64,000 bases of DNA, taken from positions 8,853,982 to 8,917,981 of the forward strand of contig NC_049984.1 in assembly GCF_000003815.2 (NCBI RefSeq), in the 5' to 3' direction. The notes beneath the pieces were generated by a model that was not told the origin of the DNA, searched no databases, and was given only the letters and a program-made list of their open reading frames with translations. How positions within the stretch are numbered: position 1 is the stretch's first letter; the number at the start of each line of letters is the position of its first letter. The translations under genes and the position numbers were made by a program. Source of the DNA: Branchiostoma floridae. Lineage: Eukaryota; Chordata; Leptocardii; Amphioxiformes; Branchiostomatidae. This document shows, in pieces, positions 7,659 to 54,800 of this stretch.

Positions 7659-8310
7659 AGAGCCTTGCCCATGCACACACAGCTGAGATTTTCACTTTTG
7701 TGGGCAAGGCCTTTAACCAGCTGTCAGTCAATAACAGAATCACTGTGGGGCCGCGTAGCACAGTGGTAGTGTATTCGGCCCGTGACCGAGAGGTCGCCGG
7801 TTCGAATCCGCCTGCCGTGTTGCCGGTCTTGTGCCCTTGGGAAAGGCACTTTACACGACTTTCCTCACTTTACTCAAGTGAAAATGAGTCGTCCCTCGGA
7901 TAGGACGTTAAATGGAGGTCCCGTGTTTGGGGAGAGCCACACCCCGGGCACGTAAAAGAACCCGCCACATGTGCGATGGTGCGATGTTAGCGGATCAAAC
8001 CATTCCGGCCAAAATGGGGTAGGGAATTTCCCGAGCAGCCTCGTAACCCCTGCTTCGCCTATTGAGTCAGTGAAGTCAAGCTTGCTTAAGCTTGATGTTT
8101 CTGACTTAGGGAGAAGAGATGCTGCTACAGTTATCGCTATGGGCCGCTCTTCATCACCATGATGGTAACATCAGGCCCTACGAACCTGATTTAGAAAAAA
8201 AAAAAAAAAACTTCTTGTAAATGTTTCTTTAGGTACAGCTGATTGGCTGGCAGATGGTCATTAGTGGGCATACACACAAAAGTGGAAAACTTAGCCTAGT
8301 TTAGCATGCC
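7659..8310. mobile_element. Fold-back repeat, copy 2, split by a SINE
   Basis: The left half (about 7659-7746: CAGAGCCTTGCC..., AACCAGCTGTCAGTCAATA) and the right half (about 8211-8310: GGTACAGCTGATTGGCTGGC...) match the two arms of the fold-back family. The SINE at 7747-8210 sits between them. This order shows the fold-back element was present before the SINE inserted. Confidence 0.7.
7747..8210 (+). mobile_element. tRNA-derived SINE (~464 bp)
   Basis: The 5' end is tRNA-like, with A-box-like GTAGCACAGTGGTAGTG and a B box GGTTCGAATCC, i.e. a pol III internal promoter. A non-tRNA body follows (CCTCGGATAGGACGTTAAA..., AAAAGAACCCGCCACATG) and the element ends in an A-tract at about 8194-8210. 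A diverged relative lies at about 37585-37880. The length and A tail argue for a retroposon, not a tRNA gene. Confidence 0.85.
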
Positions 8311-17214: not shown

Positions 17215-17970
17215 CGATCATGACATGTTTCCTTCTTTATACCTTGATCCTTTAACCCAGTCCAGGGTCATGACATGATGGCAGAGAAATTGCCATGGGG
17301 TCTTCAGTAAGCTAATGTTTACTATACCTGTATTGTGTTGTATTGTATTGGTTCTAAGATAAGGTATTGTATTGAGGAATATAATCCAGTCATTCTATCG
17401 CTGAGATAGCTAATAGTTTAACATTATCAATATTCTCTACAGAGGTAGAGCAATAAATCGTTGTCCCCGAAACCCGGGACAACGTCCTATACAAGGGACG
17501 TCCCTATTAAACCTAAGCTTGCTATCACATGTCGCAAACGGCACACAAATCGACTTAACATTAAGACACATGATTGTATTCGAAATAGAAATGTACAAAC
17601 TTCCCTTCATACCAATAACGTTGCACTCCAAAATGCCCCTATAGTTAATGCAGGCAGTGAAATCATGGAACAGCAATCATTTGACCGAGCCTTACGGCTC
17701 GATGGGAAGCACTCAATACCTGCACCTTGTCTAGTGTCGTATTACATGTAGCTTTGTTACAGTTAAAGTTGACGACATTTTACCGAATGGAAGAAAAACT
17801 CATCTTCGCAAAAGTTTATATGTTGAGATTTTTTTTAACCATTTCTAGCTACGTCATTGATATCTTGCATCCATAATATGTAGCTACGTCTTTAATGTCT
17901 TGTATTGTTGCTGTTTATAGTTTTGCTATAGTAACATTGCAAATGATCTCCGAAGTATCAAGCAAGTAGC
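17215..17970. other. Intergenic region
   Basis: Between the plus-strand sulfotransferase-like gene and the convergent sialyltransferase copy A. An open frame at 17461-17751 has no domain I recognise and unusual composition; it may be repeat-derived. A minus-strand ATTAAA (plus 17894-17899) could be the poly(A) signal of copy A. Confidence 0.4.
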
Positions 17971-20223
17971 TCATTGTTTTCCACACGGACCGACCTGCAT
18001 CTTCAGAACACCCCGTTTGTGGAGTTCCCTGTTAAAGTCGTACTCCTGGTTCATTTTGTGTTTTGGGGCAAAAGCATGATGTAGCGGAGGATCGACGAAG
18101 TCTCCTGGATAATAGTGGTACAGGATAGAGTTGTTGTTCGCGTCTTCTGTGAAAGGGTAGAATCCGTACATATAAGGGTGGTCACAGAACGTTGTCATCA
18201 TCAGAACACTGACCAGACCAACGGAAGGTGTTCCCTTCATCTTCTTGTTCGCTATTTCAGATGCAGTTCTGGTGAGAAAAAGACAAAAAAACAGGCCATT
18301 CACCTCTCGTATTATCATTATCAACAGTCTAAAAAAAAATTCCGCTTGATATGTATAGTTTGCAGTACAAGTCGCAGGTCTGTAAATCACCAATGAAAGG
18401 AATCTTAATTCTCTCCCCGAACGTCTCTCTCTCCATCCCTCCCTCCCTCATCTTCTCCCTTAAATTTTTCTCTTCCTCCATATATCAACAGGGAAAACAT
18501 CCACTCACCTGCTTATTCCGGTCCTTAGTTTCCCTGGACGACTTAACAACGGAAATGAGAGTTTATACGCTTTCACAGCTGTCTCGATATTCTTTCTTGA
18601 TCTTTTGTCTGCAAACAGAACGGCACCTTCGGCGCTTCTAAATCGACTCTCGTACACATCCTGCGATCTGTTTTTGAACAGAGCGGACTGTCGGATTCTG
18701 TCTGGCCCCTTCAAGTTGAACAATACCATGCTGGTCCGTTTGCCAACATCTTTTTCGTAACCTTTGATGGCCGGCAAATCTATTCGTATGACGTAATCCA
18801 TGGAGTCGATCTCCGCTCCACACTGACTTCCAAGGAGAACGCCACTGTTGCCTACGACAGCGCATGTGTTGTAGTGACCGATGTCGACATCTTCTGTGAA
18901 GTTCCCCAACTTCCATTTCCGTAGATTACTATTCAGATTCAGTTTCGCTGTGATATTTCTGGAAGACAAACTCCGAATGTTGACATCAAATGCGGATTAT
19001 CCCTATACTATTAGGTTGCGTCTTGTTTCGACACCATCTATGACATTTAAAATAATATTTTAATGTGCACAGATGCTGGGATAGAAGATCCTAATATCTT
19101 GTTGAAAATTAAATAAGATAATTCACTCACCTGACGTCTGTCAAAGCGTCGGGTCTAAAGTGCCATGCAGATTCTGGCGCCAAGTTCCCGAATACCAGGG
19201 TTGGTCGACTGGGCTGGGCTGGCCGAGGAGGTTGGGCTGCTTGACTACGCTGCGGTGGCCGAATAGGCTGGGCTGGGGGAGCTGGTGGCTGAGAAGGTTG
19301 GGCTGGCTGAGGAAGTTGGGCTTGCTGAGGGGGGTGACCTGGCCGACTGGACTGGGCTGGCTGATTGAGATATCGATAGGCTGGCCGAGTAGGCACCACT
19401 CGGGTTTCAACGTAGGTGATATTGAAATACCTAGAACGTAATTCGTTGCGTAGGAATCACTTGCCTGGACACAATCTCACATCTATAATAAAAGTATTCG
19501 TATATGTATCATAATGCGTCATTACATCCTCTGAATGAAGCGAAAAAAATACTCTCAAAGCTTTAAGTTTAAATTGCAGATAATGACATCAGTTTCCCGA
19601 ATACCAGGGCAGTGCTCTGTATGACTCAGCAGTGATAGTGTATATTTTGCATTAACAGAAATTTTCTACAGCCTAGCCAATCTTAACCACTCTTTACCGA
19701 CGGGTAAAGCGTGGTTGTGTCAGGTGAGAAAATAATTTTACCCAGCTAATATCCACAGCTACATGTTTTCTGTGTGACTGAAACTGACTCTCTTATAGTT
19801 GCATTGAACTTTAACTTTCTCATCTGTTATCCTCTTTACGATTACTGATTATAGTTACATATAAAGTAATCATAACAACAATGTTTCTCTGTGAAGGATG
19901 TGCAGATAAATCACATACAGTAAACCTTTACGTAGGTATTTATGTGCAATAAAGTCAGCAATTTTCTAAAGATTACATGTACAGTATACTATAGTGTTTA
20001 ATAATATGTAAGTGTACAATGTGAACCTACATATTATTAAACACTATAATATTAAGTGAATAACATGCGCTACCTTGGCACCTGCCATATCAGCATATAA
20101 AAGGCAGTGAGCAGAGTTGCAAACATGAGAAACTTCCTCAGTCGCTTTGTTGATCCACATGGGCTCGATCCTGCGAAGTTCTTGTTTTGAGGCCAGCTAG
20201 CTCTCAACTTTTGTTACCGCCAT
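17971..20223 (-). CDS. ST8Sia-like sialyltransferase, copy A (start exon disrupted)
   Basis: Minus-strand exons 20074-20223 (5' coding), 19131-19430 (stem), 18509-18958 and 17971-18268. Exons 2-4 join in frame, with the same phases as copy B. The catalytic part has the GT29 L-motif (CAVVGNSGVLLGSQCG), the S-motif (PSVGLVSVLMMTTFC), motif III (YHYY) and motif VS (HKMNQE), and ends with a conserved Cys, as in alpha-2,8-sialyltransferases, which transfer sialic acid from CMP-sialate in the Golgi. Exon 2 encodes a Pro/Gln-rich stem about 20 aa longer than in copy B. In exon 1 a duplicated AGCT (about 20197-20204) shifts the frame relative to copy B and makes an immediate TAG. Without it the exon reads a cytoplasmic tail and TM anchor (TLLTAFYMLIW). 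A downstream in-frame Met just before the TM could rescue translation. Pseudogene, assembly error or alternative start cannot be separated here. Confidence 0.85.
19990..20048. repeat. Perfect 21-bp inverted repeat (hairpin)
   Basis: Arms 19990-20010 and 20028-20048 are exact reverse complements, AT-rich, with a 17-nt loop. It lies in intron 1 of sialyltransferase copy A, 26 bp from the exon 1 donor. Confidence 0.9.
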
Positions 20224-20639: not shown

Positions 20640-22204
20640 GCCGCTGTCCGATAGCGATGTTACTTTGGCTGCAAAGACTCACAACTACTTCAATTCTGAA
20701 TGTTTGTAAGCAGTCACATAGTCATGATCTCACCACGGCACGCAGTGGGAAGCAATTGAAAGCAGTCAGACCAGATTACATGGTATAATAATTCGCCTAC
20801 AGTATGTCCTGAATACCATGTCGCCACCATTTCACAGCCATTACATGATTGAGTATACTGTCTAGTAGTTTACTCACGATCTACTACCGACCTTCCCGGC
20901 CTAGCCGCAGACTGACAGTTCCCTTCTGACTGATTCCCGGGCAACCGTTTGACTTGACAACTCTCTCAACAAGAGATTAACTTTGGGACAACATTAGCCT
21001 CGACACAGCTTCGGCTCTTCTGCATTTGTGCGGTTGTGTGAGGGTCGGAGGTCATTGCCACACGCTCTGGTGCGGGACTGGCTAATACTGAGTAATAGAC
21101 TTTTCCATGCTAAACATGCAAATCAATAACGTCAAAACACATTTACCTACATTTTAAACCTCACATCTTTACCCCCACTGCAAAGCTACATTGCTCAGGT
21201 CTGTTTTGGTTCAAAAAGGTCAACTCTGGCGTTTTAATGAGCTACAGACAGAAGAAAGACATGACACTAGGATTTCACCGGCATCTGTCCAAATGGGCGA
21301 GTCCAGGTGGAGTGCTCTAGTCAGAGGTCACCTATGTCATAACATGGCAAAGATTATAGTAATTTTTTCACCAGATTTTATAAGTACGCGTACTTCGGTT
21401 CTGCCTAAAAATTCGACCTTTTTGAGCGAAATTTTCTGAGGAAACAAATTCTAAAAAATACAAAAGAATCAATATTCTGGTAAGGTCTGTTACTCTCAAC
21501 TGCGCAATTCCTGGTTCGTTCCCTTCTGGAAGTAGTCGCTTCGATTTGGAAGGAATTAAGAAAGATTCATCTAAGAGAGGATTCATCTAAGGTTCTGGAG
21601 TGAAAATCTGACAATGCAATTTTGATAAACCATCGTCTTGATAGGCGAAGAGAAGAACCCGTCTGTGTGATATTATCATTGCTTCTACCAATCGTGAAAA
21701 ACAAAATTGCGAAAAGTTTATTTAGGGAGGGTCTTTTTCTTCAGAACAAGACTCATCGCATGTCATAAAAGCATCAATGAAAAAGTATAACAGGTGTAGT
21801 CCCATAGAAGAAAAATGCAGAAAAGTTATGTAATGCTGTATGTGGTGCGTTTATTTGTTTGCTGAAAGGAAAATACAAAAGAGTACAAGTTAAAAGGAAA
21901 ACCTGGTCCTGTACATGAACAGTTTGAGTATGGAATTCTTAACGTTGTACACTTCTAAAGTATAATGTTTTAGACATGAAAAGGTCAATTTCCTCCGACA
22001 AAACATGGATATGATACACGCCAACACATTATTCAACCCTACTGACTAATATCGGTAATGACAATATGCATACACTCAGTGGAAAGAGCTCCGAGAAATA
22101 TCACTCGCTACATCCTTGTTAACCGTTATCTCATATTCCTATCGTCTGCTGTAGTTTAGCAAGTAACGTTGCAAGCGTAATGTCCGAAGTATCAAGCGAG
22201 CAGC
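20640..22204. other. Promoter/intergenic region between the sialyltransferase copies
   Basis: Contains the copy A promoter and the 3' UTR of copy B. A minus-strand AATAAA (plus TTTATT at 21850-21855) lies about 350 nt past the copy B stop. No other gene is seen; open frames at 21191 and 21368 are featureless. Confidence 0.5.
21850..21855 (-). terminator. Poly(A) signal of sialyltransferase copy B
   Basis: AATAAA on the minus strand, about 350 nt beyond the TGA. Confidence 0.6.
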
Positions 22205-24698
22205 TCATTGTTTTCCACACGGACCGACCTGCATCTTCAGAACACCCCGCTTGTGGAGTTCCCTGTTAAAGTCGTACTCCTGGTTCATTTTGTGTTTTGG
22301 GGCAAAAGCATGATGTAGCGGAGGATCTACGAAGTCTCCTGGATAATAGTGGTACAGGATAGAGTTGTTGTTCGCGTCTTCTGTGAAAGGGTAGAATCCG
22401 TACATATAAGGGTGGTCACAGAACGTTGTCATCATCAGAACACTGACCAGACCAACTGAAGGTACTCCCCTCATCTTCTTGTTCGCTATTTCAGATGCAG
22501 TTCTGATCAAAAAAAAAAAAAAAACAGGTCATTCACTTCTTGTATTATATTTATCAACAGAATGAAAGTTGTACATCACCGACGAAAGGATTCTAAATTT
22601 TCTCCCCCACTCCCTCTGTCTCTCTCTCCCTCACATCTCCCTCTCTTCTTCCTAAGTGGGGAAAACAGCCACTCACCCGCTTATTCCGGTCCTTAGTCTC
22701 CCTGGACGACTTAATAACGGAAATGAAAGTTTATACGCTTCCACAGCTGTCTCGATATCCTTTCTTGACCTTTTGTCTGCAAACAGAACGGCACCTTCGG
22801 CGCTTCTAAAGCGACTCTCGTACACATCCTGCGATCTGTTTTTGAAAAGTGAGGACTGTCGGATTCGGTCTGGCCCCTTCAAGTTGAACAATACCATGCT
22901 GGTCCGCTTGCCAACATCTTTCTCGTAACCTTTGATGGCCGGTAAATCTATTCGTATGACGTAATCCATGGAGTCGATCTCCGCTCCACACTGACTTCCA
23001 AGGAGAACGCCACTGTTGCCTACGACAGCGCATGTGTTGTAGTGACCGATGTCGACATCCTCTGTGAAGTTCCCCAACTTCCATTTCCGTAGTTTAGTCG
23101 TCAGATTCAGTTTCTCCGTGATTTTTCTGGAAAGCAAAGTCAGTATTGATATCGAAACAAAGATCGCTGTATCAAATGTTTCAATACTTTCTCCCCATAA
23201 CTGATGAAGTTATGATATTGCACATGAAGCTATCGTTTACAAACATGTACGAATTCTAAGATGGAAGATCGTAACTACGGCGTCTTCTATCTACCCTTCG
23301 TCGTTGTATATTTTTGCAACCGTTGATAAGCCCGTTCATACGGCGCACCGGTACAAAACCGTTTTTTTGTTGTTGTTGTTGGACCGGTCCAGAAAAAACG
23401 GACCTGAAAGAAAATAATCAGGGACCGGATTTGGGAACGATTACAAAATAACAGATAATACTGGCAGGCGTTCACGTGTTTTGGGCTTATAGGTCCAAGA
23501 AAATTACAAAACCAAATTCATTTTTACCATGTTTCTACAGTCAAAATTGGTCTAAAACAGAGGCAGATAGTGTTTTTCACATAAAGATAGGATTTTAATC
23601 AAGTTGTGTCAAAATTGACCAAGTATCGCCCGTTCACAAGTTTTCACAATTATCAGGTTCAGGTTCGGACCAGAACCTGAGCCTCTGGACCTGGACCGTA
23701 CTTGTACCTGAATTTTCTGTACCGGTACCCACCCCAAGTGTGATGCATTGCTAAGTTGAAGGTCTGGCATATAAAGAATCGTTAAGGGTCTTCACCTTTG
23801 ACCATGCGCATGCCCAGTCGGATCCGTAAACAGGCTGATAAAACAATCATATAGATGTGGAAAAATATTGGACTTACTTGACTTTTTTCAAAGCTTTGGC
23901 TTTAAACTTCCATGAAGACTCGGGTGCCAAAGTCCCAAATACCAGGGCTGACTGAAGGGGGTGGGCTGGCTGAGTAGGCTGGGCAGGCTGTATAGACTGG
24001 ACAGGCGGAGTGGGCTGAGGAGGCTGGGATAGCCTGGGTAGCCTGGCAGACTGGGCCAGCTGTGTATGCAGCACACGTGTTGTTGGCGGCTTTTTTCCGT
24101 AAGTGATATTGATATACCTACAATGTAGATCATGACGTTAGAATCACCACATTGTTCACATCAATAATGGATAAATGTATACGTACATACATATGCACTA
24201 CTTTAATAGAGTACATTTTTACAGTCGTTCGTCCTAGGCATTGTTAACTGTACCAGTGTGCAAACTTTGATTCCCTGAATAGCATCAACAGGTTGTTGAG
24301 CCATTGGGAAGTTTCTTATCAAAACCGCATTTTAGCATTCAGTGTTAGATGGGGAAATTGTGCTTGTGAGACCAAAAAAAAAGGGTTTCCTTAGCGAAAG
24401 TATATTCAAGCCAAAAGTTGCTTTCGGAGATGCTAACATCTACGGCGACAGACTTGATTTAACTTTGGGGACTGTAATCCCCTCTACGTTTACTGATTAT
24501 GATTACACGTAACGCTAGAACCCATGAAAACATAAAGATATATGTGAAAAATACGTGTTACCTTTCCACATGCCACATCAGCATATAAAAGGCTGTGAGC
24601 GAAGTGGCACATATAATAAGCTTCCTCAGTCGTTTTGACGTTCCACATCCGACATAAGTCCTGTTTGGGGGCCAGCTGACAATCTTGTTTCCTTCCAT
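22205..24698 (-). CDS. ST8Sia-like sialyltransferase, copy B (intact)
   Basis: Exons 24562-24698, 23878-24117, 22677-23126 and 22205-22502 sum to 1125 nt, 374 aa plus stop. Residues 1-31 are cytoplasmic; a TM anchor spans about 32-43 and beyond (IICATSLTAFYMLMW). The stem (46-125) has degenerate QP/PxQ repeats. The L-motif starts at C158 (CAVVGNSGVLLGSQCG), the S-motif at about 290 (PSVGLVSVLMMTTFC), followed by YHYY and the HxxxxE VS motif. These are diagnostic of GT29; the L- and S-motif wording and the C-terminal LHKRGVLKMQVGPC fit the ST8Sia (alpha-2,8) branch. It probably acts in the Golgi on sialylated glycans; acceptor unknown. The start ATG follows a spliced 5' UTR (acceptor at 24715-24716). 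A tandem paralogue of copy A with the same four-exon structure. Confidence 0.92.
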
Positions 24699-26653: not shown

Positions 26654-29524
26654 TCAGAATGGCGTCTCTGGCCTGTCTTTCAGCCATTTCGCGATGCCCG
26701 GATTGGACGAGACGTTGTCCACGACCCTCTTCAGGCTCGCATACCCCTTGAGATGTTCCCCTGGGATGAGTTTGTTGACGACGTCAATGAAATGGAAGAA
26801 GTAAACATCAGCCCAGCTCATCTGTAGGGAGGGGGTGGGTTGGTAGTTAACGACAAAATACATGTATATATCATGAAGGATGTAAGACTGTATGAAAATG
26901 TGAGTGGATTGTCTTCTTCTTCAAAAAGACAGAAATATATGCCTAAGCGTGCGCAGTTGCATCATCCCTTTTGAGGAGGATTACTCGGAAGGGGTAGACG
27001 GATTTTTGATTTCAAGGTAACTTTGGAGATGCCTTCCCAAATCAAGGTTAATGGTTAATGCAAACCACGGGCTAATTTGCATAATCAATGAGGTCAGTTT
27101 ATTGATCCGCAGCATTTCATAATAGGATAATCAAACATATGACTTATGTAACTGAAAAAGAGAGAAATATATCGACAGACATATCTATTAAAGAAATTGT
27201 TACGTAACTTTCATAATTAATAGTAAATTGTTATAGTAGCATAATGTTAAATGATAAGAATTTCATTATTGTGACATTTGGCAGCAATGTTAAGTTTAAC
27301 ATTATGAGACATAAATCATGCAAATTAGGGTCTCGTTGATGAGAAAATGCTACATTTGCATAATTTATGAGAAAATGCTACAATACATTGAGCATATTGT
27401 TATTCAACGAGAGATGTCGCTGCGCGTTTGTACTCGGACCCTACTCGGAATGGAGAACGACCTATAAAATATTATGTTATTTCATAGTTACCCTGCACAC
27501 ATAAACGGTTGACAATCTGGACCATGAAATAATTGTCTGCATAATGATATTAAGAAACAGACATTAACGCACCGAGTTACCGACGAAATATCCCTCTGCG
27601 CTCGCAAGCTTTTCAAAGCGAGCTAGAGTCGGCAGGGTCTTCTCTACGAACTTCTGTTTCAATTCTTTCTGCAGAAAAAAACAACAAAAGAAACGCATTT
27701 CCTATAGAACAAGCAATAAGAATATCATACTAAAGCAAATGAATAACATTGAATGTCTCCCAGAATTAGATCGTTAATGCGTCAACGAGACAAATTACAC
27801 AGAAAAACTGAAGTATGGAATAGTCCTACTCTGTGGTCTTCATTCCGCAATGTTAGAAACAAACTAGTACTAGAAATATCTCTTTCAATGTCTAACTACT
27901 GTAATCGTTCGTTGATTCATTGACGTCTTCTCCTTGTTCCTAATCTCCAAGCAGATCCTACGGTAGCATAATAAGTTATCAAAAGCTGGCAGAGGAGTGA
28001 AGCCGGCCTAGAAGTGTTACGCTACCGGTGCCCGTTTGACTCCCTTTGGCCGGCTCATCTTATGGCACCGTAGGATCTGCTTCGAGACTACTTGTTACAG
28101 CAAGAAGTGGTGGCATATTGCTAAAAAGCTCTATCATTCTACCCTTTAAGTCAGGTTACTTTTATGTAACTGATTTCAGGCAAAAGGCAACAATGTACAA
28201 TAATGATTTCTCTGCCCGAGGCAAGTCTTCCACAAATTGATTACCTTGCTTATGTCCGTTTGTCAGAATGTTTTACTGCACCTGCTGAGATTGAACTTTA
28301 TGTATCGTCTTTAGATCTAAAGCATGTGGTTATGCTAAGGTTGACAACCGTTTTAACACATTCAACATAATTTGCCATGGTGTCTTTTCCAGAATGATGT
28401 CCAACAATTCACTTTATTCGAATATTCAATGGTGAAATATTCAAGTGGAATTCCCTCAAACTTTCACACATAGAATATACATGTTATTGTGTGAAGAAGA
28501 CAATCGATTGAAATAGATGCTTGTCACAACATTATTTGCATTACAAATGAGACAATGAGACAACGTCAACATAAAGAGATTTGCAAAAGCTTTCAATATC
28601 TCATGGAGGTATGAGTTCTCCAGATTCTTGTTTTCTAAGTGTATTTTAGCATGGTTGAACTTACTTTCTTATTTTCGTCCTCTTCCCAAAAGAAAGCTAA
28701 ATCCGGTGTAAGGTCACCAAAAATGCTGTCGACGATCATATCTGCACGAGCCTGCTCCAGGAGTGTCTTTCCTGCCATGCCTGCAGACAACGACAGGAGG
28801 CTCTACAATGTAGTTGTAACCATCTGACTATCTTGCTTTTATCTGGTTAGAAAGACATGTCTAAATCCACCATGACAACCTAAAGGTCTTGCTACCGTGC
28901 TTTTACGAACACGTTTTTCTGTTATCATTATTACCGCGTATGTATGTGTGTAATTATGTCTGTATGTATGTTGATGAATAGTATCCTGAAATTTGGGCTT
29001 GTTCTATCGACGAAATGACTATGTTTTAGCTCCCCTGGTGGCTTTCCTAGATACATGTACTACAGGAGGACTTCAATGTTTCCAACAGGTATCGATACAG
29101 TAGAAAATATATGAAAAGTTAAATGTTGGAAATAGTTCTAAACAGTTATTTATCTCAGTTAGATTGTTACAAAGGTTTAGAAAATGTTCGAACAAAACGC
29201 AAGAAACACCCAGTGGACACTGTAGTGTGTAATTGGGTTTATTTCTACGTACCGACTTCTTTGGCGATAAGCCTCCATACGGCCCTGCTCTCACCAATCA
29301 CAGTCCCGTCCACTTCAAGGATAGGCAGGTGCCCCGTCGGAGACCCTGATGGAAAATAACTTTCATTATGCGGTAGCGTCTGTGCGTGTGTGTTAGTCTG
29401 TGTAACGCAAACTCCGCTATCCGGAGCTTGTAGACTCCTCCCGGCGCGGCAGTATGACGGGCCTGAGAAGCGCGGTTAAATCAGGCTACGTGTGTGTGTG
29501 TGTGTGTGTGTGAGTGTGTGAGAG

Positions 29525-30899: not shown

Positions 30900-31430
30900 G
30901 TATGTCGTATTTTTACCTCCATGAAAAATGGAGGTATAGTTTTTGGTGTGTCTGTCTGTCTGTCTGTGGGCCCCCTAGCGGCTTGCTCTGGAAATGCAGG
31001 GGCATTCTGGTCAAAATCTTCCAAGGAGCATAACGGAACAAAGGAACAATGGATTTCCATGATATTTAGCACGGAGGTATCTTTGGCAGAGATGTACATA
31101 ATGAAGTGCAAATTATGCAAATTTTGACTTAATTTGCATACTTAATGAGGAAAATCTACGTTAACAGTATCTTCCTTTCTAGGACTCAAATACATGTAAC
31201 ATACGTAGTTTGTGGCAGGTAGAGGAATAGCAGATTCCAATTATGCAAATAAGTCCATAATTTGCATAATTAATGTGAAAGTGTCCAAATCCTCCCAAGT
31301 ACATGTATTACTTTTTGGATTGTCAATATTGTGACCTCTGCAAGTTAGCTAAAGGTGTACATAGCCAAGCATAAATTATGCAGATGTGAACGTCATTAAC
31401 ATAATCAAAATATTTCATGGAGGTATGAGG
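30900..31430. repeat. Dispersed repeat family with ATGCAAAT motifs
   Basis: Contains the phrase GGGCCCCCTAGCGGCTTGCT and several ATTATGCAAAT / ATTTGCATAATTAATG motifs. The same phrases recur near 12600-12780 and in the block at 32270-33560. Upstream of GST; no coding content. Confidence 0.7.
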
Positions 31431-32269: not shown

Positions 32270-33560
32270 CTCTTTATTACCTTTGCCAGAATGGCTAAGG
32301 TTATGTTTTGGGCTTGTGAGTCTGTGTGTGTGTCTGTGTGTGTGTCTGTCTGTTAACAGCATAACTCAAGAAGTCTTGGATGGATCCCGATAATATTTGG
32401 TAGGTGGGTAGGGGTCGGGAAAACGAAGGTCAAGTTCGATAATGGGCCCCCTGGCGGCTTGCTAAGGTACTGCAGCAGAACCTCAATTTTTGATATCTCG
32501 TGTTCTGGACATGCTGTGATCATGATTTTTGAGTGGTAGATAGCCCTGGAGGCAGAGAGTAAGTGCTGTGAGTTTGTGCCCCCTAACGGCTTTTTTGGAA
32601 CTGCAGGCGCCGGTTTCCTTTCAAACTTTGGATGAGAATAACTCTACAACGTGTTGACGGATCGTCATGATTTTTGGTATGTAGATAGAATGAGTGATGA
32701 CTTACATAATGGTATACTAATTATGCAAATCAGCAGCTAATTTACATAATTAATGAGGAAAAATTATAAATCCACTACATTCCATGATAGGACTTTCAAA
32801 CTTGTCACATATGTAGCTGGGAAGGAGAGAAATGTCGACAGATATCAATTATGCAAATGATGACCTCATTTGCATAATTAATGAGAAAATATGAACATGT
32901 TGACGGATCATCATGTTTTTTTGTAAGTAGGTAGCGTAAGTGAAGACCTACATAATGAGATAACAATTATGCAAATCAACAGCTAATTTGCATAATTAAT
33001 GAGGATATTTTATAAATTCACTACATTCCATGATAGGGCTTTAAAACTTGTCACATATGTAGCTGAGAAAGAGAGAAATGTCAATACATATTTATCATGC
33101 AAATGATGATCTCATTTGCATAATTAATGAGATTAATTAACGTGTTGACGGATCGTCATGATTTTCGGCATGTAGATAGCCTAAATGAAGACTTATATAA
33201 CGTGATACTTATTATGCAAGTTAACAGCTAATTTGCATAATTGATTAGGAAAAGTTCATAAATCCACTGCATTCCATTATAGTACTTTCATCAAAGTTGT
33301 CACATATGTAACTGAGAAAGAGGGAAGAGAGTAAGAGGTGTATTTAAAGACTTTGAAAGAGAATAAGTCAAGAATGGATCAAAGGATCATCATGATTTTT
33401 GGTATGCTGATAGCTTAAGTAATGCTTGATAGTTGATACAATTTGATATCAATTAATTGTAAATTGGGATCTAATTTGCATAATAAATGCCGAAATTTTA
33501 TAAACCAACTCCAAGTATTTAATTATAAAGAAAATGAAATGAGTAACGCATTTGTCTACA
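32270..33560. repeat. Dispersed repeat plus ~245-bp tandem array
   Basis: The phrase GTTGACGGATC recurs at about 32653, 32899 and 33144 (246 and 245 bp apart), with a weaker fourth unit near 33375. Each unit contains inverted pairs ATTATGCAAAT ... ATTTGCATAATTAATGAG, and between them CATTCCATGATAGGACTTT and GTCACATATGTAGCTGAGAA. The leading part (32270-32640) belongs to the same family as 30900-31430. Confidence 0.88.
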
Positions 33561-42838: not shown

Positions 42839-45800
42839 CTACAGAGCCTCAGTAGACTGGGTGAGGTACACGATGTACTCCTGCCCCTGGGGCCTCTCCC
42901 CCTCCCCGGAGCTGACGATGTGCTGCATCCCGTCTCCTCCAGCCTGCTCCACCACTACAGCATCAGGAGCTAGAGCCACCATCGCCTGGGGAAAATAAAT
43001 GTCAGAAATGGGTCTTATTCATTTCATCACATTTGTTGGTTCTTGTCACCACGGAGGGTCCCACAGAGATTGTTGGACCATTTCAAACTGAGGGTATTGT
43101 TTAGATAAATGTTCGAATGTTGAGTGAAACTCAGCTGTCTTGTTACCAAAAAGGCAAACTTAGATCCTTGTTGCCATTTGATTTTGTCACGGTTTGCTTG
43201 AAAATCCAATGACATAAAAATCATGCCATGGCCTATGATGGATGTAAATATGGGTCCTTAAAGAAGTGTATTATGCACATTTGATAAAATATCTAAACGA
43301 TTTCACAACCCAGCTTTCTCAACCCGGTAGATCACATCCTGGAGTTCTCTTGTCACGTGACTGATGATATTGACTACTGACAAGACAGTTTTGAGAAAGT
43401 GGCGCCCCCTGTGCCTGTTTAAAGTGCTGCGTTATCTACAGATGTGGATCACACCCCTCGCAATCCACTCAGGATCCTGATCCAGCATTTAAACACAGTC
43501 CCAGTGTGTGTTACGTTCACTCCTGGTTTGAGCTGCCCATACCTGTGACTCGGAGACATTGGCTGTGGTTGTCGTGACGACGTGAGTGCTGGCGGCCTCC
43601 TGCTGCGTGATGTCCATGATCTGCTGCAGGATGTTGACAGCTGCGGAGGTGTCCCCTCCCTCCGTCTGCAGGACACCTGCTACAGGAAAGATGGAACAAC
43701 TTATATGAGGGATCCAGAACAACCACAAAACCAGGACGTATCATGTGAGGTTTTCCTCACGTATGTCCCCTCCCTCCGTCTGCAGGACACCTGCTGCAGG
43801 AAAGACAGAACAACTTATATCAGGGACACATTGTGACCACAAAACCAGGATGTATCATGTAAGGTTTTCTTCATGTATGTCCCCTCCCCCAGTCTGCGTG
43901 ACACCTGCTACAGGAAAGATGGTACAACTTTTATTAGGGACACAGAGCAACTACAAAACCAGCACCTCTACAGAACCTGTGGAATGAGGTTTCCTTCACG
44001 TATATAAGGATGATAGGATGTTGACCAAACAGTACTGCGAGTTTGCAATCATACAACCATCATCATCATCATCGGTTGGCTGCTGATCATACAACCACAG
44101 CGTTCTTTTGAGGACTGACATATTTCTATAATCTGAAAGTTACATGGGATAATGCCCAGATTATAACCAGAGATTCCAGACTATGAATGATGTGCAAAAT
44201 GACTACTTAAGAATCTAATAAAAGAACAGAAGAAGAAATAGTCATGCCTTCAAGCACAAGAGTTACCCAGGATTGTAAACAAAATCCACTTAAATATATC
44301 CCCACAGTGCTTGAGTATTAAATACTCACTAGCATCGGTGTAGATGACCTGCCCGTCCCCACTCTCTGTCACCTCCACTACATGATGGGTGGCACCCAGG
44401 GCAGCGTCCACTTCCATCAAGTTCACCACCTGGGAAGGAGCAAGTATGGTCTTTCTTGACAAAATGTAAATTTTTCAAAAGTAAGAGAAGGCATTCCTTG
44501 TTTTGCCTACATACAAACAAAAACCACTTAGATACAGGCCCAAAATACTGGAGCATCAAGGTATGCTCATGTATATAAATTTTTTACTTATTTTGCTGCT
44601 AAAATGTATTATTCTTACCATAGACTGATAGAGATAAAGATTTTGCACTGACAAAATAAATTGCATGGGTATTGAAATCAGCACCAACTTTAAATTTGAG
44701 ATCCTGACGAAAGCATGGGTTCTCCACATAAGATACCTTTCGTCTGTTTGAACCTTCGTTTCATCAACTCTCGAATTGGCCCACAGGCCACTTTTCATTG
44801 AGGTCATGAGGTAAGAGGTCAGACCTGAAGTCTTGACAAACATTTCTTTCATTGTTAATTCACGTTTCTCTTATCAAATGCCACAGATTCAAATAGTTCA
44901 AGTACAGGAACAGGTCCAGGCCTCTATACCAGTACCTCTATTTGCACCTGATGTTACATTTGGGCAGACATCCCTAAACAAAAAGTGAAGGATACCTTAG
45001 CCTCATGTCTCTTCTGCAGGTGCTTGTTTAGGTCCCAGCGGTTCCCAAACACAAAGTCACACTCAGGGCACTTCAGCATTTCCACATGCATCTCTGTCAC
45101 CTGGTCTGTACCAGTGGCTGAACACGTCACCTACACAAGGAAGGTTATAAGTATCAGTCCAACAGACCAACTCTGCATGCAGTAAGCCCACTGCCACTTT
45201 AGGTCGATGTTTTTAAAACAACAATGCCCCATTATTCTTTTCTGAAACAACACAAGGCATCTCTTTTATACCGTACATTTCAAGTATGTCATATACAATC
45301 AATCAACTGCAGGCATCAGTATTGATGCATGGTAGCTGTAGACACTGTTCTCCATACACAACTAAATCTAAATATTTCATGCTTTTTATTGGAATAAAAG
45401 TCTGATATGATAGTGACATGTTACAAGGACCAAACATTGCTGTGTGGGTGTAACCATGAGTAATCCTGGTGCTCAACTACAACACCATTGGACCAAAGCC
45501 AAATCAGACTTCCAAATCTCCAAGTATCCTATTACACCACTTCTACTTAACATGCTGCCTACCTGCAATATTCACATAGTTGCACATGCATACCAAGACA
45601 AACAAACAAATGCATTTCAACTCATGACAGTATGTCCCTTTTCATGGAGGTAGAAACAACAGGAAAAATATGTTTCGAATTCTCCAAGTATCCTACTAGT
45701 ACTACACCACTTCTGCCTTACATGCTGCTAATATTCAGATGACTGCAGATGCACACCAAGACAAATGAACACACCAACTCATGACAATACCTCCCTTTTC

Positions 45801-48800
45801 ATGTAGGTCATAACAGTGGCATCACAACTCTCTCACCTGTGTTGGACTGTCCAAATCAGTCTTGACCAGGGAACCCACAACCTGTTCGTACGCTTTGCCC
45901 GGGTGTTTCTTGTTGAAGTGCCTCTTCATGGCGCCGGTGATGTTACAGGAATACGGACACAGTGGGCACTTCAGCACCTTCTGTCCCGAGTGCTGCTCCA
46001 TGTGTCTCCTCAAGTGGGCAATCTGACAGGGGAAGAAGGGACAATTTTACAGGACTGAATGAGATTATTTCCGAGCACGAGCCAAGGATGAAGTTCAAGT
46101 AGGGATCGTCAGGCAGCTCAGGAGCACCGAGAGACAGTCCGAAGTATATGGCATTGATAGCGAACCTAGGAGGAGCGGTAAGTAGTAAGTACATGAACAA
46201 TACAATACAGAATGAGAATATGGCGGTATGAGTCTTTAACGTCCCGGTTTTCTTATAAGGTCCATGTGTCTCCTCAGGTGGGCGATCTGGCAGGGGAAGA
46301 AGAGAAATTTTACAGGACTGTCTGCTCTGCTATAATCTCCAAGCAGATTCTACGGCAGCATAAAATAGTGTCAAAAGCTGCCAGAGGAGTGAAGCCGGCC
46401 TAGGAGTGTGCTTGGCTATGACTCCCTTTGGCCAGTTGTACTCCTTAGCCAGCTTTGTCTACTAGTGAAAGTGACCTGAAACCATTTTAGCTTTACTAAA
46501 GAGCTATTCTTCTATTGGCCAGGAAAGAGAGACAATGCAGAAACAATGTGCGACTAAAAAAGTACCATTCTGGCAGGGGAAGAAGGGATAATTTTCACAG
46601 GTCTATCAACAGAGAAGACAGATGCTATGTACAGTATTTACAGATTCAATGTGCTGGGGGAATTTCCCTGGCAGCTCTTTTCGACAAGCACAATGCACTG
46701 GAGCTTAAAGTTCGGGCCATTCGTTACTTTTCGCTGTTGAATCTCTCACTGTAAGCCTAGGAAAATACATTTTCATCAGTTTTGTATCATCAAGTTCAGA
46801 TGATGTGAAGTTTTTTCTTCGTCCCAACAGGGAAATTTCCATCCTGGGAGGAGACATCCTTGCAATGTAATGACAACATACAACTAAAATTAAAAAGGAC
46901 ATTCGCTGCCTTACCTGTATGCCACTGTAGTCACAGATCTGACAGTAGTATCTCTTCAGCTCGTTGCCACCCTGGTTGTGGTACTGCTGACTGTGGAACT
47001 TCAGACTCTGCTTGGTCTTGAACTTCTTGCCGCACTCCTCACACAGGTGGTTCTTTTCCTTGGTGTGACGAAGCTTAGGAAAACCATAGATTTTTTTTTA
47101 TTAGTGTGTAAATGACATTGGCAGTGATCAAATGTACTAGTAATTTGTGGGCTTGCCCAGCAAGAGTAAAACCACTTGCATACACATCACTACCAAAACC
47201 AAATCTAGAACATGTTACAACACTACATGAGCAAGCTGCCAGATTCTGTACAAACAACTACAACAACAACTGTGCTAGTGTCACCAAAACAAATCTACAA
47301 TGGATGATTCTACAATGTTTTCATCACTCAGGTCCAAAATTTTACGTGCCTTGGCAGTACTCCACCAAAGAAAGGCTTAACTAAGAACCCTGCCATGTAG
47401 TCCTCACCATGTGAGCCTTGAGGTTGCTCTTGCTGCGACAGGCGAAGGTACACAGACCACACTTGAAGGGCTTGATGCCCTCGTGAGCCCAGATGTGCTT
47501 CCTCAGGTCTGGTTCCTTCTTCCTGAACAGCTTCCCGCAGTACGGACACTTGAACGCTCTCTGTCCCATGGCACTCTTCAGCTGCGCTCTCTTTCCCAGC
47601 ACCAGGGAGATCTCCTCCAGGGTCATGGCTGGGTGGTGCTTCTTGATGTGCACCTTGATTGCCCTGCAACACACAAATGAATTATATATCGCCCAACCAC
47701 GGGTAGGATCGCCCAACGGCAGTACACAGGAATGAACTATGTGATAATGTTCGATAGGGTTCTATGGAGTGACATACTGTAGGTACTAGCCTGGTCCCGA
47801 CCTTCGGTCGATTATGTATGTATGTATGTATGTATGTGATAATATTTGATATCTTTGACTGTATTTATTCATTCATTGATTGTACTTAATGTATTTGGTG
47901 GATTAATGTTATGTCTATGTGTTAATGTATGGGTCTTTATTATGACTTGGCCGGGATCAAATTCCTGACCTACCAAATGCAAGTTGAACACTCCACCCAC
48001 TCGTCAGCCATTGCACTCATACCATTGCACAAATGAACTCAACACCAAAAGTTTAGAAAGTCGATTTAGGTCTACCACATCTCCGTTGATATCTTATACA
48101 GTAATTTTAAAACCATGCAGAATGACCCAGATAATTGTAAGAAAGCTTGAGTGAAATATGGTGAGAAACTGCAGACCTTTCCTTGGTGAAGGTTTCTGAG
48201 CAGGCGGGGCAGGTGTAGGAGTCTCTGAGGTTCTCCACAGGTGCGTGCTCCTTCTTGGTGTGGCGCCACAAGGTGTACTTGTTGTTAGTGCTGAACTCAC
48301 ATTGTTCACACTTGATCAGAACCTACAGTGAAACAGATATACGACAACCATGTAAAAAGGTGTAGGTAAAGGTATTACCATAGCTTTTTGAGGCCGTAAG
48401 GGCAGTGGGTCGTTATCCACTGTGTCTAGGGTACAGTATTGGAAGATACCCTCTCCTTCCATCACTTTTTACCTCCTCATTTGAAGTCAGGTACCCATTT
48501 TGACATCTGTTTAGAGTGAAGAAATTTGTGCTGAGTGCACAATGACACGTCTATCAAGGAATGCCAGGATTCAAACTCCTGACCTCACGATATAGTGTCT
48601 GCTGGCCTAGTCCCTCAGCTATTCGACACTACAATGTACACCATTCAAAAAAAGGGAAAACATCTTGAAATTTTGAACTTTCTAAACACAGAACTTTATT
48701 CAAAAGCAACATTCACCTAAAAATGCTCAAAGGTTTCTGTATCACATAGACTATCACAAAGGAATGGTGGTTGTATAAAGCTGCATGTACCTACCTTACT

Positions 48801-51800
48801 GTGTGAACCCTGGATATGTCTCTTCAGTCCTTCCTTAGTGGCAGAGGCATACGGACATTCGTTACAAGCAAACGGGCGCTCCCCTGTGTGTGTACGCTCG
48901 TGTTGAGCCAGTGTTTTGCTGTGGACGACAAAGCTTTTCTGGTCATATTGTTCAATTATCAGAATGGCACAACTTCCATTTGACTATCACAAGACACTCC
49001 TAATCTGTAGCAACTAGCAAGGTGGCATTACTTGATCTACTAGTACTAGTACAGAGTGAGTAATGTAATATAGAACAAGCCAAGCAAAACCATACATCCA
49101 ATTCTCCAAGTATCCTATTACACTATTTCTGTCTTACATACTGCTACTATACCTTATACACATTTTTGCAGACTAACTCCAAGACAAACACACCAACTGA
49201 TCACAATACCTCTATCTAACGGATGTAACAAATAATTTGCAGTGGAAGACTCACTCGTAGTAGAAGAAGCGACCACAGTAACGGCACTCCATATCTCCAT
49301 ACAGAACTTTCAGCTTGTTGTAGACGTCTAGACTCATCTTGCGGTACTCCAACTTCTCCATCAAAGTGTCAAAGACTGTCTTGCCATCATCTTGGTCCTC
49401 TACATCTTCAGTTGACTCTCCCTCTTCAGGTTTGCTTTCACTATCAGCAGAGTCTTTGGGTTTGACAAAACATGGAATCAGTAAATTCATCTGAAACTGT
49501 GAAAGTTTTCAACAAAATTGCCCCTGCAGTTCTAAAATCCACAGCTAAGGGGCTCAAACTTACATACATTTGACCGTGTAATTCTTTCTTGTCATGCTAC
49601 GCACAATACATTTTCACAACTCTCAAGACTTGGAAAACATTTTATGGAAATTTTTTATTATGACATTCCACATCATTTTAGACAAAAACTTATACTAAAT
49701 TGTACTAATTCTACTAAATTATAAGTTATAGCCACCTGACATTAACGAAATATACAAGAAATACACAATACCTGTGCCACTTGGCTTTTCTGTTGTTTCA
49801 TCTTGGTCTTCCTCAGCTTTCTTCTTACTATCACTTTCTTGCTGTTCCTGTACAGAGTCTTGCTGTTCTTGTGTGGATGCTTTCTGTACCTGCGCTGCTT
49901 CCTTCTGCTGTTTCTGCCCTGCTTGCTGTTCCTGTACTGTCTCTTGTTGCTGTTCCTGAGCCATGTGAGACAGCAGCAGTTCTGCTGCTCCTTGCTGTCC
50001 CTCCCCCTCCTGACCATGAATGGGATGACCCTCGGGGGTCACCTCGATAGTCTGGTACCCATCAAAGTCAAACGCTTTCACGTCATTCCCGAACTCAAAC
50101 AGAAACTTGCTGCCCTCCAAGCTCTTAGCAAACAGCTCGTCAAAAGATCTCTCCTCAGAAACATGTTTCTGTAACAAGATATTGGTACAAGTAAGTGAAG
50201 ACTCATCTGTAGAAGCTGAAGAGCAGACTGATAAACATTTCTTGTGATGAGGAATTCTTACAAACTACATGAAGGCACTAAATTTTATGGATGACATCCT
50301 CTGCAGACTCTAAATCTAACGCAAGAGCAAAAACAAAATTAGTAAAAAAACAAGATGCCCAAATTTTCAAAATAGAGACAATACAAGAATTGAACTGACA
50401 ATACAAGGAATCACAGCCAACAGGTCCTTTATTCCTGTATTCAAGACGTGCACAAACTATAGTATGGTAATCTTGTATATCATCACTCACCAACTTGGAA
50501 ATTACACTCAGGGTGAGCACACTACTGCCACTTCTACCTCAAGATTACCACATAACATCTTTTCCCATTTTCAGCATCTTTTTGACAGTAACCATCTCCA
50601 GGAGGGATATAAAATGTCTTTTATTTTATAATAAGGAAATTAGGCAAAATCAAGACACATGCTGATGTGATCCATGAAATCTATTTGCTGTGGCCTAACA
50701 AATAATACACTAGAGCATAGACAGCTACAATGCAAGTCTTGACTCAGTTCTCGCAACTCTCACAAGAACTGGGTTACTCCGTCATAAAGGTAGACTGATA
50801 ACCATCGAAAATTTGGAGGTACATCAGTTTACCTTTTAAAATGTAGCCAATGATCGATGAAAATTCTATTAACAGCTACAATGTAGTTATCAAACTGCCA
50901 AAGTGAAAATCAAGTAACACACATACCTCCTGTAGATGTGCAGTGAGAGGGATGGAGCTGAGAAAGTGCTCCTCACACGCGCAGCAGTTGTAGATGAACT
51001 TGTGTTTCCTGATGTGCAGGTCCAGGTTTGCCTGTCTGTTGGTGGAGTACTCACACAGCCCACATGGGAACGGCTTCATACCCTGGCGAAGAACCATGGA
51101 GGGAATCTTCATCATACAACTGATGTGTATCTGTGCCTTTGGCATAACACACCAACGCCGCAGGCACGTTATAACAGCTGTTTACATTACACTGAGCGAC
51201 CTGTCACACCTAATATTTTCACATCCAGCTGCAACTGTTTAAAGCAATCTGATGAGGAAGCCCCCAACTGTACTGGGTCATGAGTTTTACTCTATGATAG
51301 TTCTAGGACAATACATCTTAACCTTGAGTTGATTACTCTAGTATGTGGAGGCATGGCTGTTTCTTGCACTTTTCTTGTTAGCATCAAATATAGGCATAAG
51401 GGAAAAAAGTACTTTACGTACAAAACAAGACTGGCACCACACACATATACAGACACAGCTATGTCAATACACACATACAAATACTAGTATACACACAGAC
51501 AGACACACAAATGCCCACTTTCCTTCTCTCCTACTAACCTGATGTAGAACCACGTGTCTCTCCTTGTCCAGACGTGTTTTGAACTTGCGGTTACAGAGGT
51601 CACAGATGTAGATGAGATCTCGCACGCCATCTCGTGTCTGGAGCTTCAGCTTATCAAATATTTCCTGCAATGTAAAACAATATAACTAAGAATCTTAAAT
51701 ATGTAATAAAGTTGAAGACAAAATTTTGTGCAGCATATGCACATTAGGTTCTGGGACAGTGCTGTGCTGAAGCAATGTGACATACATGTACCTTTTCGTT

Positions 51801-54800
51801 TAAGATTTTAAATTTCTAAATCAAGTAAATGTTAATGTATTCAAATTCCCCATCTATAGACCCCTGCAATAAACAAACCTTGCTGTCACTGTTGGCCTCG
51901 GGGTCGTGTTTTTCCCTGAAGTGCTTGACGAGAGCCCTGACAGTGGTGTAGGTGCTGGAACACATCTCACAGGGGTGGCGCTCACCCTTGTGCTTGGTAG
52001 CAATGTGGTCCTACACAGAAAATACATAAACAGAAATTATATATATGCTAGGGCAACTAAGTCCTTTATTTACAACCAAAGAGTTACGCTTCATCGACTG
52101 ATAGCTTCCTCTGAGCAATAATGACTAATTCTACTTGTCAACCATACAAGTAATCTCTACACACTAAGTTTCTCCAATTAATTTTCAGAGAATATTCAAC
52201 CAATGTTTAAGGTGCTATAGTGATATAATCATAAAAAGTAAGACCCAAACCTTTAGATGGCTCTTTTTGGTGGAGGAATATTCAACCAATGGACCACGGT
52301 AACCCCATCATGTTTCAGGTGGTATAGTGTTACTAGTCTTTATCATGATATAATCATTAACAAAAGTAAGACCCAAACCTTTAGATGGCCCTTGTTGATG
52401 GAGGAATATTCAACCGATGGACCACGATAACCCCATCATTTTTCAGGTGGTATAGTGTTACTAGTCTTTATCATGATATAATCATTAACAAAAGTAAGAC
52501 CCAAACCTTTAGATGGCCCTTGTTGATGGAGGAATATTCAACCGATGGACCACGATAACCCCATCATTTTTCAGGTGGTATAGTGTAACTAGTCTTTATC
52601 ATGATATATAGTCATAATAAAAGTGAGACCCAAACCTTTAGATGGCCCTTGTTGATGGAGGAGTAGTCACACTGTTGACAGTGGAACCTCTCCCCGGTGT
52701 GTTTACGCATGTGAGTCTTCAGGTTGGTCTTCACAGCACAGGCATAGTCACACCTGTCACACTTAAACGGCTTCTCCTTGGTGTGCACACGCAGGTGGTT
52801 CACAAGCCCATTGCGGAACTTAAAGACCTGTAAATGTCATAGGTGAAAATCACATCCTTATAGAGGAAGCAAAAGTAAGGGTTTATTCAAAACTTAGTGA
52901 AAATATATTCCTTCCATTTATAACCATAAGTAATAGGAGGGTCTAATGTCTATGGTCTACATTAGACATCTTAAGATACATTTTTGTACATGTTCATTTC
53001 TTATTTTTCAGCATCATGTAAAATGAAATGCAAAGATTTTGCAAGCTGATAGGCAGATTCTTCATTACTGCATTCAACAGGACATGTTTCAAATTCACGG
53101 TTTAAATGATTCTGTAGTGCAGAAGAAGTCATACAATGGAGACATCCATGGTGTCTGAATTTGTGGTGCAGAGGTTACCGTAAAAATAAAACCAGAGAAA
53201 ATCTCAAGAATGACTTAGTTGCCCCACATACCTTGCTGCAGAACTCACAGCTGAACACCGTGAGGGAGGACCTACTGAAGAGATAGGGAGGTTTAAGAGC
53301 AGCTGTGGAGTTGAGTGACTGTTGGATGGTGTGGGTGATGCCCTCTGCCTGTACAACTGTCTGTACATCCTCTCCCATCTCTCCCAACTCAGGTACGCCA
53401 CCCTCTGCGTCTGCTTGGTTTCCGGCTGTTCCAGCAGCTGCTGCTCTTCCCTGAGTCGAACCCACAGCTCCATAGTTGTGCTCTCTAGCTGCCTGCATGT
53501 CAGGGGAGAAAAAGTTGTGTTACTTTCAAATTCATGTTTGAATTAATCTCAATTTCAACAAGAAGAACCAAAGTTGAAACCTATGTCACTTCTTCCTTAC
53601 GTATCTCTATCCAAAAAAATGTGACCATAGCATGTTCAGTGCAGGAAATAAAAATGTATCAAAACCAGAAGTTCCACTGGAGTACCAACAAAAGTCACCA
53701 GGGGGCCAAAAGTGTAATCATTTCCAGTTTTTGCCACAGACTAACAAACAGACAAACACTGCCTAAGATAAAACCTCAATTTTTCATTGGAGGTAAATAT
53801 GTCAAAAGTATGGATAAAGTATGATTACATATAGCTCAAAATTTGCATTGTTCTTAATTTTCACTCAATTGAATCTTCTATAGTGGCAAGTTTGTAGAGG
53901 TCTACATGTGATTTTATATGGACCAAATACAACACACAAACTTGTGCCTGTTTCCATACTAGAACTAGTAGAAACTATCCTATTTTATTAAGTACTTACA
54001 AGTTGTGATGTGGATGCCCCAGCTACCTTCTTCCTCTTCGCTCTCATCTCCTCCAGTTCAGCAGCCTTCATCTCATCTTCATCCCTGGTCTCCTCTGCCA
54101 TACACCGATGCCTGCTGTACTGTCTTTCCCGCGCAAACATGCGGTTACACTTGTCACACACAAGTTTTCCATCACTAGACAGTATGGCCTGCCTTTGCTT
54201 ATCGTGCGTTGTGCCCTTTTCCTCGTCAAGACGTAACTCTAAATTCTCATCCACAGGCTTCTTCCTGGGGCGTCCCCTTTTCTTCTTGGGTGGTACGACA
54301 ATGGTGGAGTCATTCATTGTTTTAACCTTCACGTCTGGTAGGTTAGAGAATAATGCTTCGCCCGGCTGGGTTGCTGTTTCTTCTTCGTGACCTTCTAACA
54401 GCAATGTCATTTTCTGCGGGGATGTTGGCATGTTGGAGAGCGGCATCAGCTGAGAGATGAAGCTTTCCGTGTCCCCGTCTGGTACAGTGTCCGCATGTTC
54501 GCTCTTCAGATGTGAGTGTAGCTCCGCCTTGCTCAGAGCGAACAGGTTACAAAGCTTGCAGGTCCAGATACAAGTGCTGCTTGTTGCCTCAACATGGTCT
54601 GGAACTGGCACTGGAAATGTTTGAAGAAACTTAGATTTAGACCATTTGCAGAGAAAAATCAACCATACATACATTTACGTCATACCGTATTTTGCACTAT
54701 CTCACCGGCTTCTACATGTATCAAACAGGCTTTCAAAGAATAATGCACTGGAATGCACTTCAGTTGCCCTGGGAGCACTGCTGTCAAAAGTTGTTACTAG

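Follow-up and report, generated by a model that had tools for sequence, protein, structure and literature searches.

The ZFAT-like exon and its repeated edge

The window, i.e. the whole 64,000-nt stretch of Branchiostoma floridae DNA that was analysed, contains a zinc-finger gene on its minus strand, and the 3' edge of one of its exons is repeated, together with the splice donor, in the intron that follows. This exon is the third one seen in a partial gene model starting at 54610 and was called exon 4 in an earlier note on this DNA. The exon, the array and their surroundings are listed below (a slash marks the splice site).

52827-52636, minus strand: authentic zinc-finger exon, 192 nt, 64 codons, phase 0, ending in ...CATCTAAAG; supported by the frame and by the gap-free alignment of the finger across the joint to ZFAT chain 2rsi
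52634-52635, minus strand: authentic donor GT (AAG/GTTTGG), predicted from the continuity of the reading frame and of the finger
52662-52534, minus strand: unit u1, 129 nt, carrying the 27 terminal nt of the exon, the real donor and the beginning of the intron; from the sequence
52533-52406, minus strand: unit u2, 128 nt, with a decoy donor GT at 52506-52505; from the sequence
52405-52278, minus strand: unit u3, 128 nt, with a decoy donor GT at 52378-52377; from the sequence
52277-52192, minus strand: unit u4, decayed, 86 nt, with a decoy donor GT at 52250-52249 and three changes in the 27 exon-derived nt; from the sequence
52177-52204, minus strand: intron flank (~..GGTTGAATATTCTCTG..), showing the duplication breakpoint from the intron side; matched by eye
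52010-51879, minus strand: next exon, 132 nt, acceptor TGTAG/GACCAC; from the frame and the alignment to the ZFAT chain

A 128-bp tandem repeat carrying the exon edge and its donor, with three extra copies in the intron, had been described in the earlier note, and its presence was borne out by repeat finding, self-comparison and motif counting. TRF reported a repeat at 52221-52669 with a period of 128, 3.5 copies, 94% matches and a score of 771. Comparison of the window with itself by BLAST gave off-diagonal matches at the array down to E = 4e-142, and the motif CATCTAAAGGTTTGGGT occurred four times on the minus strand in a scan of 52150-52720, starting at 52644, 52515, 52387 and 52259. With the unit boundaries set by cutting at TCCTCC, the array on the minus strand measures 471 bp (52662-52192). 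The 27 exon nt, the donor and intron sequence are present in every unit, i.e. the tandem repeat spans the exon-intron boundary. The sharing of the exon edge thus stands as noted earlier, with a measured length of 27 nt in place of ~30 nt, and the array runs to 52192, past the low end of the location given as 52241-52640.

The exon terminates in ...TCCTCCATCAACAAGGGCCATCTAAAG, followed by the intron start GTTTGGGTC. When the two exons 52827-52636 and 52010-51879 were joined, the frame was open throughout and an intact C2H2 finger was found over the joint (VFKF...KGHLK/DHIATKHKG...). One terminal unit, u1, is the authentic boundary. The copies are intronic and leave the coding sequence unaltered, since the original exon and its donor are preserved upstream of them.

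Identity of the gene

The junction finger together with the next finger had ZFAT chain 2rsi, which we take to be human, as its best solved-structure match (E 1.3e-14, the next being CTCF at 1.2e-10), and the alignment was gap-free across the splice joint. With the exon alone, or with both exons joined, many-finger CTCF and ZNF568 chains outscored ZFAT; among these queries only the junction finger ranked ZFAT first in the solved-structure matches. The finger over the exon joint 46915/46022, where a second boundary was found duplicated (see below), matched CTCF best, with ZFAT far down (2rsj, E 3.1e-6), and therefore that search gives ZFAT no support in that part of the gene. A ZFAT-like identity is well supported by these matches at exon 52827-52636, so that the earlier naming of the exon edge as ZFAT is upheld in the form of ZFAT-like, and for the remainder of the gene we infer the same identity.

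Divergence of the units

Mismatches were found at 4 of 127 positions, with two gaps, between u1 and u2, at 7 of 127 between u1 and u3, and at 3 of 128 between u2 and u3. The outer unit u4 showed 8, 7 and 6 mismatches over 86 positions to u1, u2 and u3, respectively, with three gaps in each comparison, two of them of ~20 nt. The copies had been regarded as nearly identical, which does not hold for all of them. The 27 exon-derived nt are the same in u1, u2 and u3, and two sites (GAAACAT and CATTGG) are common to u3 and u4 and different in u1 and u2. Among the four units available, the most alike pairs are adjacent ones, as unequal exchange would produce, and the most diverged unit is the outer u4. 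The short intron part of u4 could equally reflect insertions in u1-u3. The Gly codon of KGHLK is changed to Ser in u4, whereas ZFAT chain 2rsi has Gly at the same place, suggesting that the exon form is ancestral and that u4 has decayed. As far as the sequence goes, Gly in the exon and in the ZFAT chain against Ser in u4 fits a copying direction from exon to intron.

Given how few differences separate u2 from u3, the unit number could be wrong, and one or more units might have been created or multiplied in assembly. In the available passages of the respective papers, a globin mirage (see below) was misassembled in a draft (PMC3087553), and the copy number of repeats in PGBD5 differs between two assemblies (PMC3902484). 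However, all four units here are mutually different, u4 strongly so, no run of N lies nearby (the sole 100-N run is at 14757-14856), and comparable structures are present at other boundaries. We therefore regard an assembly artefact as extremely unlikely.

Breakpoint and proposed origin of the array

Ahead of the shared edge, the exon reads GTGACTACTCCTCC, the flank TTGAATATTCTCTG and the unit junction TTGAATATTCCTCC. In wider context, each internal junction reads ...GGTTGAATATTCCTCCATC..., the true exon ...GTGACTACTCCTCCATC... and the flank past u4 ...GGTTGAATATTCTCTGAAAAT...; the unit junction consists of the intron through AATATTC and the exon from CTCC. On sequence grounds, this abrupt change is a duplication breakpoint, with the intron flank TTGAATATTC on one side and the exon TGACTACTCC on the other. 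The breakpoint accounts for the divergence of the copies from the real exon ahead of the shared edge, and the copies have no Cys codons because these sit upstream of it. The statement that the copies lack the Cys pair of the finger and are unable to encode a whole finger was correct. Counted by eye, TGAATATTC and TGACTACTC agree at 7 of 9 positions, the trace expected when a tandem duplication arises between two short stretches of similar sequence.

We propose that slippage or end joining between the intron sequence TTGAATATTC and the similar exon stretch TGACTACTCC would, in a first event, have duplicated a segment running from the 27 terminal nt of the exon through the donor into the beginning of the intron. 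Later unequal exchange may have added units and kept the inner ones alike, leaving the outermost to decay. Splicing would take the first donor, the sole one directly beside a complete exon that has an acceptor. The copies would leave with the intron and do nothing. Exon-end slippage, as suggested in the earlier note, survives here as a general idea, namely a tandem duplication over the boundary with a recognisable breakpoint.

Comparison with published mirages

The mirage of the amphioxus Adh3 gene was reportedly described by Canestro et al. 2002. Boundary duplication is not a new idea, and minisatellite-like duplications of amphioxus exon-intron boundaries are already named mirages in the available passages of PMC3087553. 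There, the unit number of globin mirages varies, and edge units escape homogenisation. Like the mirages of the globin genes BflGb6 and BflGb9 and of Adh3, the present array is a minisatellite-like tandem repeat across a boundary, and as in BflGb9 it is the 3' boundary of the exon that is duplicated (PMC3087553). In globin and Adh3 the copies retain AG/GT signals, with inner units similar and edge units diverged (PMC3087553). AG/GT signals are likewise retained in the ZFAT-like gene, and its units, as far as only four can show, fit the pattern of similar inner and diverged edge units. The present array differs in the gene affected and in its unit of 128 bp, as compared with 150-160, 157 and 10-72 bp in the globin and Adh3 mirages, while all its units (129, 128, 128 and 86 nt) are inside the order of 10-160 bp reported in the passages of PMC3087553 and PMC3902484. 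The globin mirages are backed by RT-PCR and allele data (PMC3087553), whereas the ZFAT-like array is known here from one sequence.

Repeats of 60 and 108 bp at splice sites of lancelet PGBD5 are described in the passages available from PMC3902484, in which troponin C is mentioned too. The ZFAT-like gene resembles PGBD5, with its two arrays, in having imperfect arrays that abut or overlap splice sites of one gene. In PGBD5 the repeats are annotated in part as coding exon (PMC3902484), whereas here three boundaries of one gene are affected, one donor and two acceptors. In the literature searches no ZFAT mirage came up, and an amphioxus huntingtin paper, in the passages shown, mentions tandem repeats and assembly errors and no boundary duplication.

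In our assessment, the array is very likely a mirage of the amphioxus type, a boundary-spanning tandem duplication that has grown to four units and whose copies are spliced out without effect. It is a real structure of the published kind, probably without function.

Decoy donors and splicing

The four donors, one real and three decoy, share one sequence from -9 to +9, in which the real donor has no advantage over the decoys. With 18 identical letters at each donor, the choice must come from context, such as exon definition or transcript order. Under exon definition, the donor beside a full exon should win. No strong acceptor was found among the 14 AGs listed in the array, which are those with at least 15 nt upstream inside the scanned stretch, the preceding 18 nt containing at most 61% pyrimidine. 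The decoys thus have no acceptor of their own, and by exon definition the first donor should be used. The same 14 AGs argued against pseudo-exons arising from the array, and this candidate was rejected.

Structural hiding of the decoys was also considered, with the exon-intron-exon RNA of 949 nt as the folding input. At three window settings, the local accessibility of the donor 9-mer was 0.0006, 0.0009 and 0.0022 at the real donor, with values of 0.0011-0.0188 at the three decoys, and in two of the settings the real donor ranked last. The mean unpaired probability in the global fold was 0.52 for the real donor and 0.49, 0.43 and 0.58 for the decoys. Neither measure supported structural hiding.

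The decoys might be functional, competing for U1 and diverting transcripts to nonsense-mediated decay, with copy number tuning the output. The identity of the four donors is consistent with this, as is the predicted outcome of decoy use, in which the exon would be extended by 129, 257 or 385 nt and the eighth codon beyond its normal end would be a stop in every case. The 27 exon-derived nt are likewise unchanged across u1-u3, but 0 changes in 27, set against 4 in ~100 intron sites (u1-u2), is too little to indicate constraint, and u4 has 3 of the 27 changed. Furthermore, the globin and Adh3 mirages are reported without splicing disturbance, the globin RT-PCR and the Adh3 data suggesting no interference with regular splicing (PMC3087553, in the available passages). 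We consider functional decoys very unlikely. Based on the published precedent and the stop codons, the copies are probably removed silently with the intron and ignored by splicing. The earlier proposal that they buffer or confuse the choice of donor was not supported: no sign of decoy use was seen, the eighth codon of the extension would be a stop, and the published amphioxus cases are reported to be spliced normally. Arrays of this type offer a natural experiment on how splicing chooses among identical donors.

Since each copy ends in AAAG/GTTTGG, with AG adjoining GT, the array might also be read as a nascent intron or exon, gained by tandem duplication, or as stepping stones for recursive splicing at AAG/GT. 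Mirages were proposed as a source of new introns in the globin paper (PMC3087553, in part), and intron gain as in Rogers 1989 and Hellsten 2011, according to the passages of a citing paper, similarly involves tandem duplication of a sequence with AG/GT. In those cases, however, the new intron is cut from a former exon, whereas here an already-predicted intron is enlarged. No good acceptor is present among the 14 listed AGs (61% pyrimidine or less), and the frame is closed by stops. This reading is hardly credible, and a mirage spliced out with its intron remains our preferred one.

Further boundary duplications in the window

Other predicted splice boundaries in the window are duplicated as well.

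45997-46057 and 46261-46320, minus strand: second mirage, acceptor side, the acceptor with the 26 leading nt of exon 46022-45837 and, 264 bp upstream, their copy; self-BLAST and inspection
46566-46601, minus strand: further partial copy in the second mirage, of the intron part and AG; self-BLAST and inspection
43650-43962, minus strand: third mirage, acceptor side, a 114-bp tandem repeat of three units that carries the acceptor (GTAGCAG) and the 27 leading nt of exon 43676-43543; TRF (114 bp x 2.7) and self-BLAST
9845-10012, minus strand: donor-side candidate in a separate predicted gene without family support, the donor (9993) and last 15 nt of the exon (end 9994), with a copy 83 bp downstream; self-BLAST and inspection

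A predicted splice boundary lies inside three of the five TRF rows with a period of at least 50 (9845, 43650 and 52221; 19 rows in all), and the other two, at 9658 and 32648, have no obvious splice boundary. The duplication at 46022 came from self-BLAST and not from a TRF row; it carries two differences in the 26 exon nt, both synonymous if read in frame. Three boundary duplications in one gene suggest that the genome holds many such structures, and surveying them could show how often introns grow by exon-edge capture.

A tandem AG acceptor, either TAGCAG or CAGCAG, is present in each of the three units of the third mirage. After the exon edge, the two copies continue with TACGTGAGG or TACATGAAG, and TACGTGAGG is donor-like and would make a tiny exon of ~30 nt. 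Next to the 9994 duplication, a 51-bp x 4 minisatellite at 9658-9863 (minus strand) shares sequence with its unit.

Length of the captured exon edge

The exon nt captured in the ZFAT-like gene number 27, 26 and 27, and 15 in the fourth case, in the other gene. The similarity of the first three values is a post hoc observation and is unexplained. The three arrays were placed at random, 200,000 times each, over the 12 predicted exons in 43543-54610. Left aside were two TRF rows, at 49884-49958 (a 24-nt period inside a predicted exon) and at 47813-47837 (TATG), as well as a 112-nt match between 45496 and 49082, which lie 3586 bp apart. A boundary was touched with P 0.668, 0.507 and 0.520, and it is therefore ordinary for an array to touch a boundary of this short-exon gene. 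Exactly one boundary was touched, with at most 30 nt of exon, with P 0.052, 0.061 and 0.061, but both the cut-off of 30 nt and the gene had been chosen once the data were known. The same outcome would follow if longer captures were selected against, and no conclusion was drawn on whether boundary capture is statistically surprising. There is only a slim chance that the edges arose not by blind slippage but through a process coupled to splicing or transcription, as though a factor sitting at a constant distance from the splice site had set the breakpoint.

Other features of the window

Two segments on the minus strand, 17918-18964 and 22152-23132, are 93-95% identical, lie ~4.2 kb apart and have matching reading frames, which presumably resemble a sialyltransferase; judging from this identity, the pair is a recent tandem gene duplication. 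Rfam gave a single match in the window, a tRNA-like sequence at 7749-7820 (plus strand, 35.8 bits), which may be a tRNA-derived repeat. The AT-rich array at 32648-33326 (246 bp x 2.8) has weaker matches at 27058-27168 and 31095-31280 and is possibly a dispersed element.
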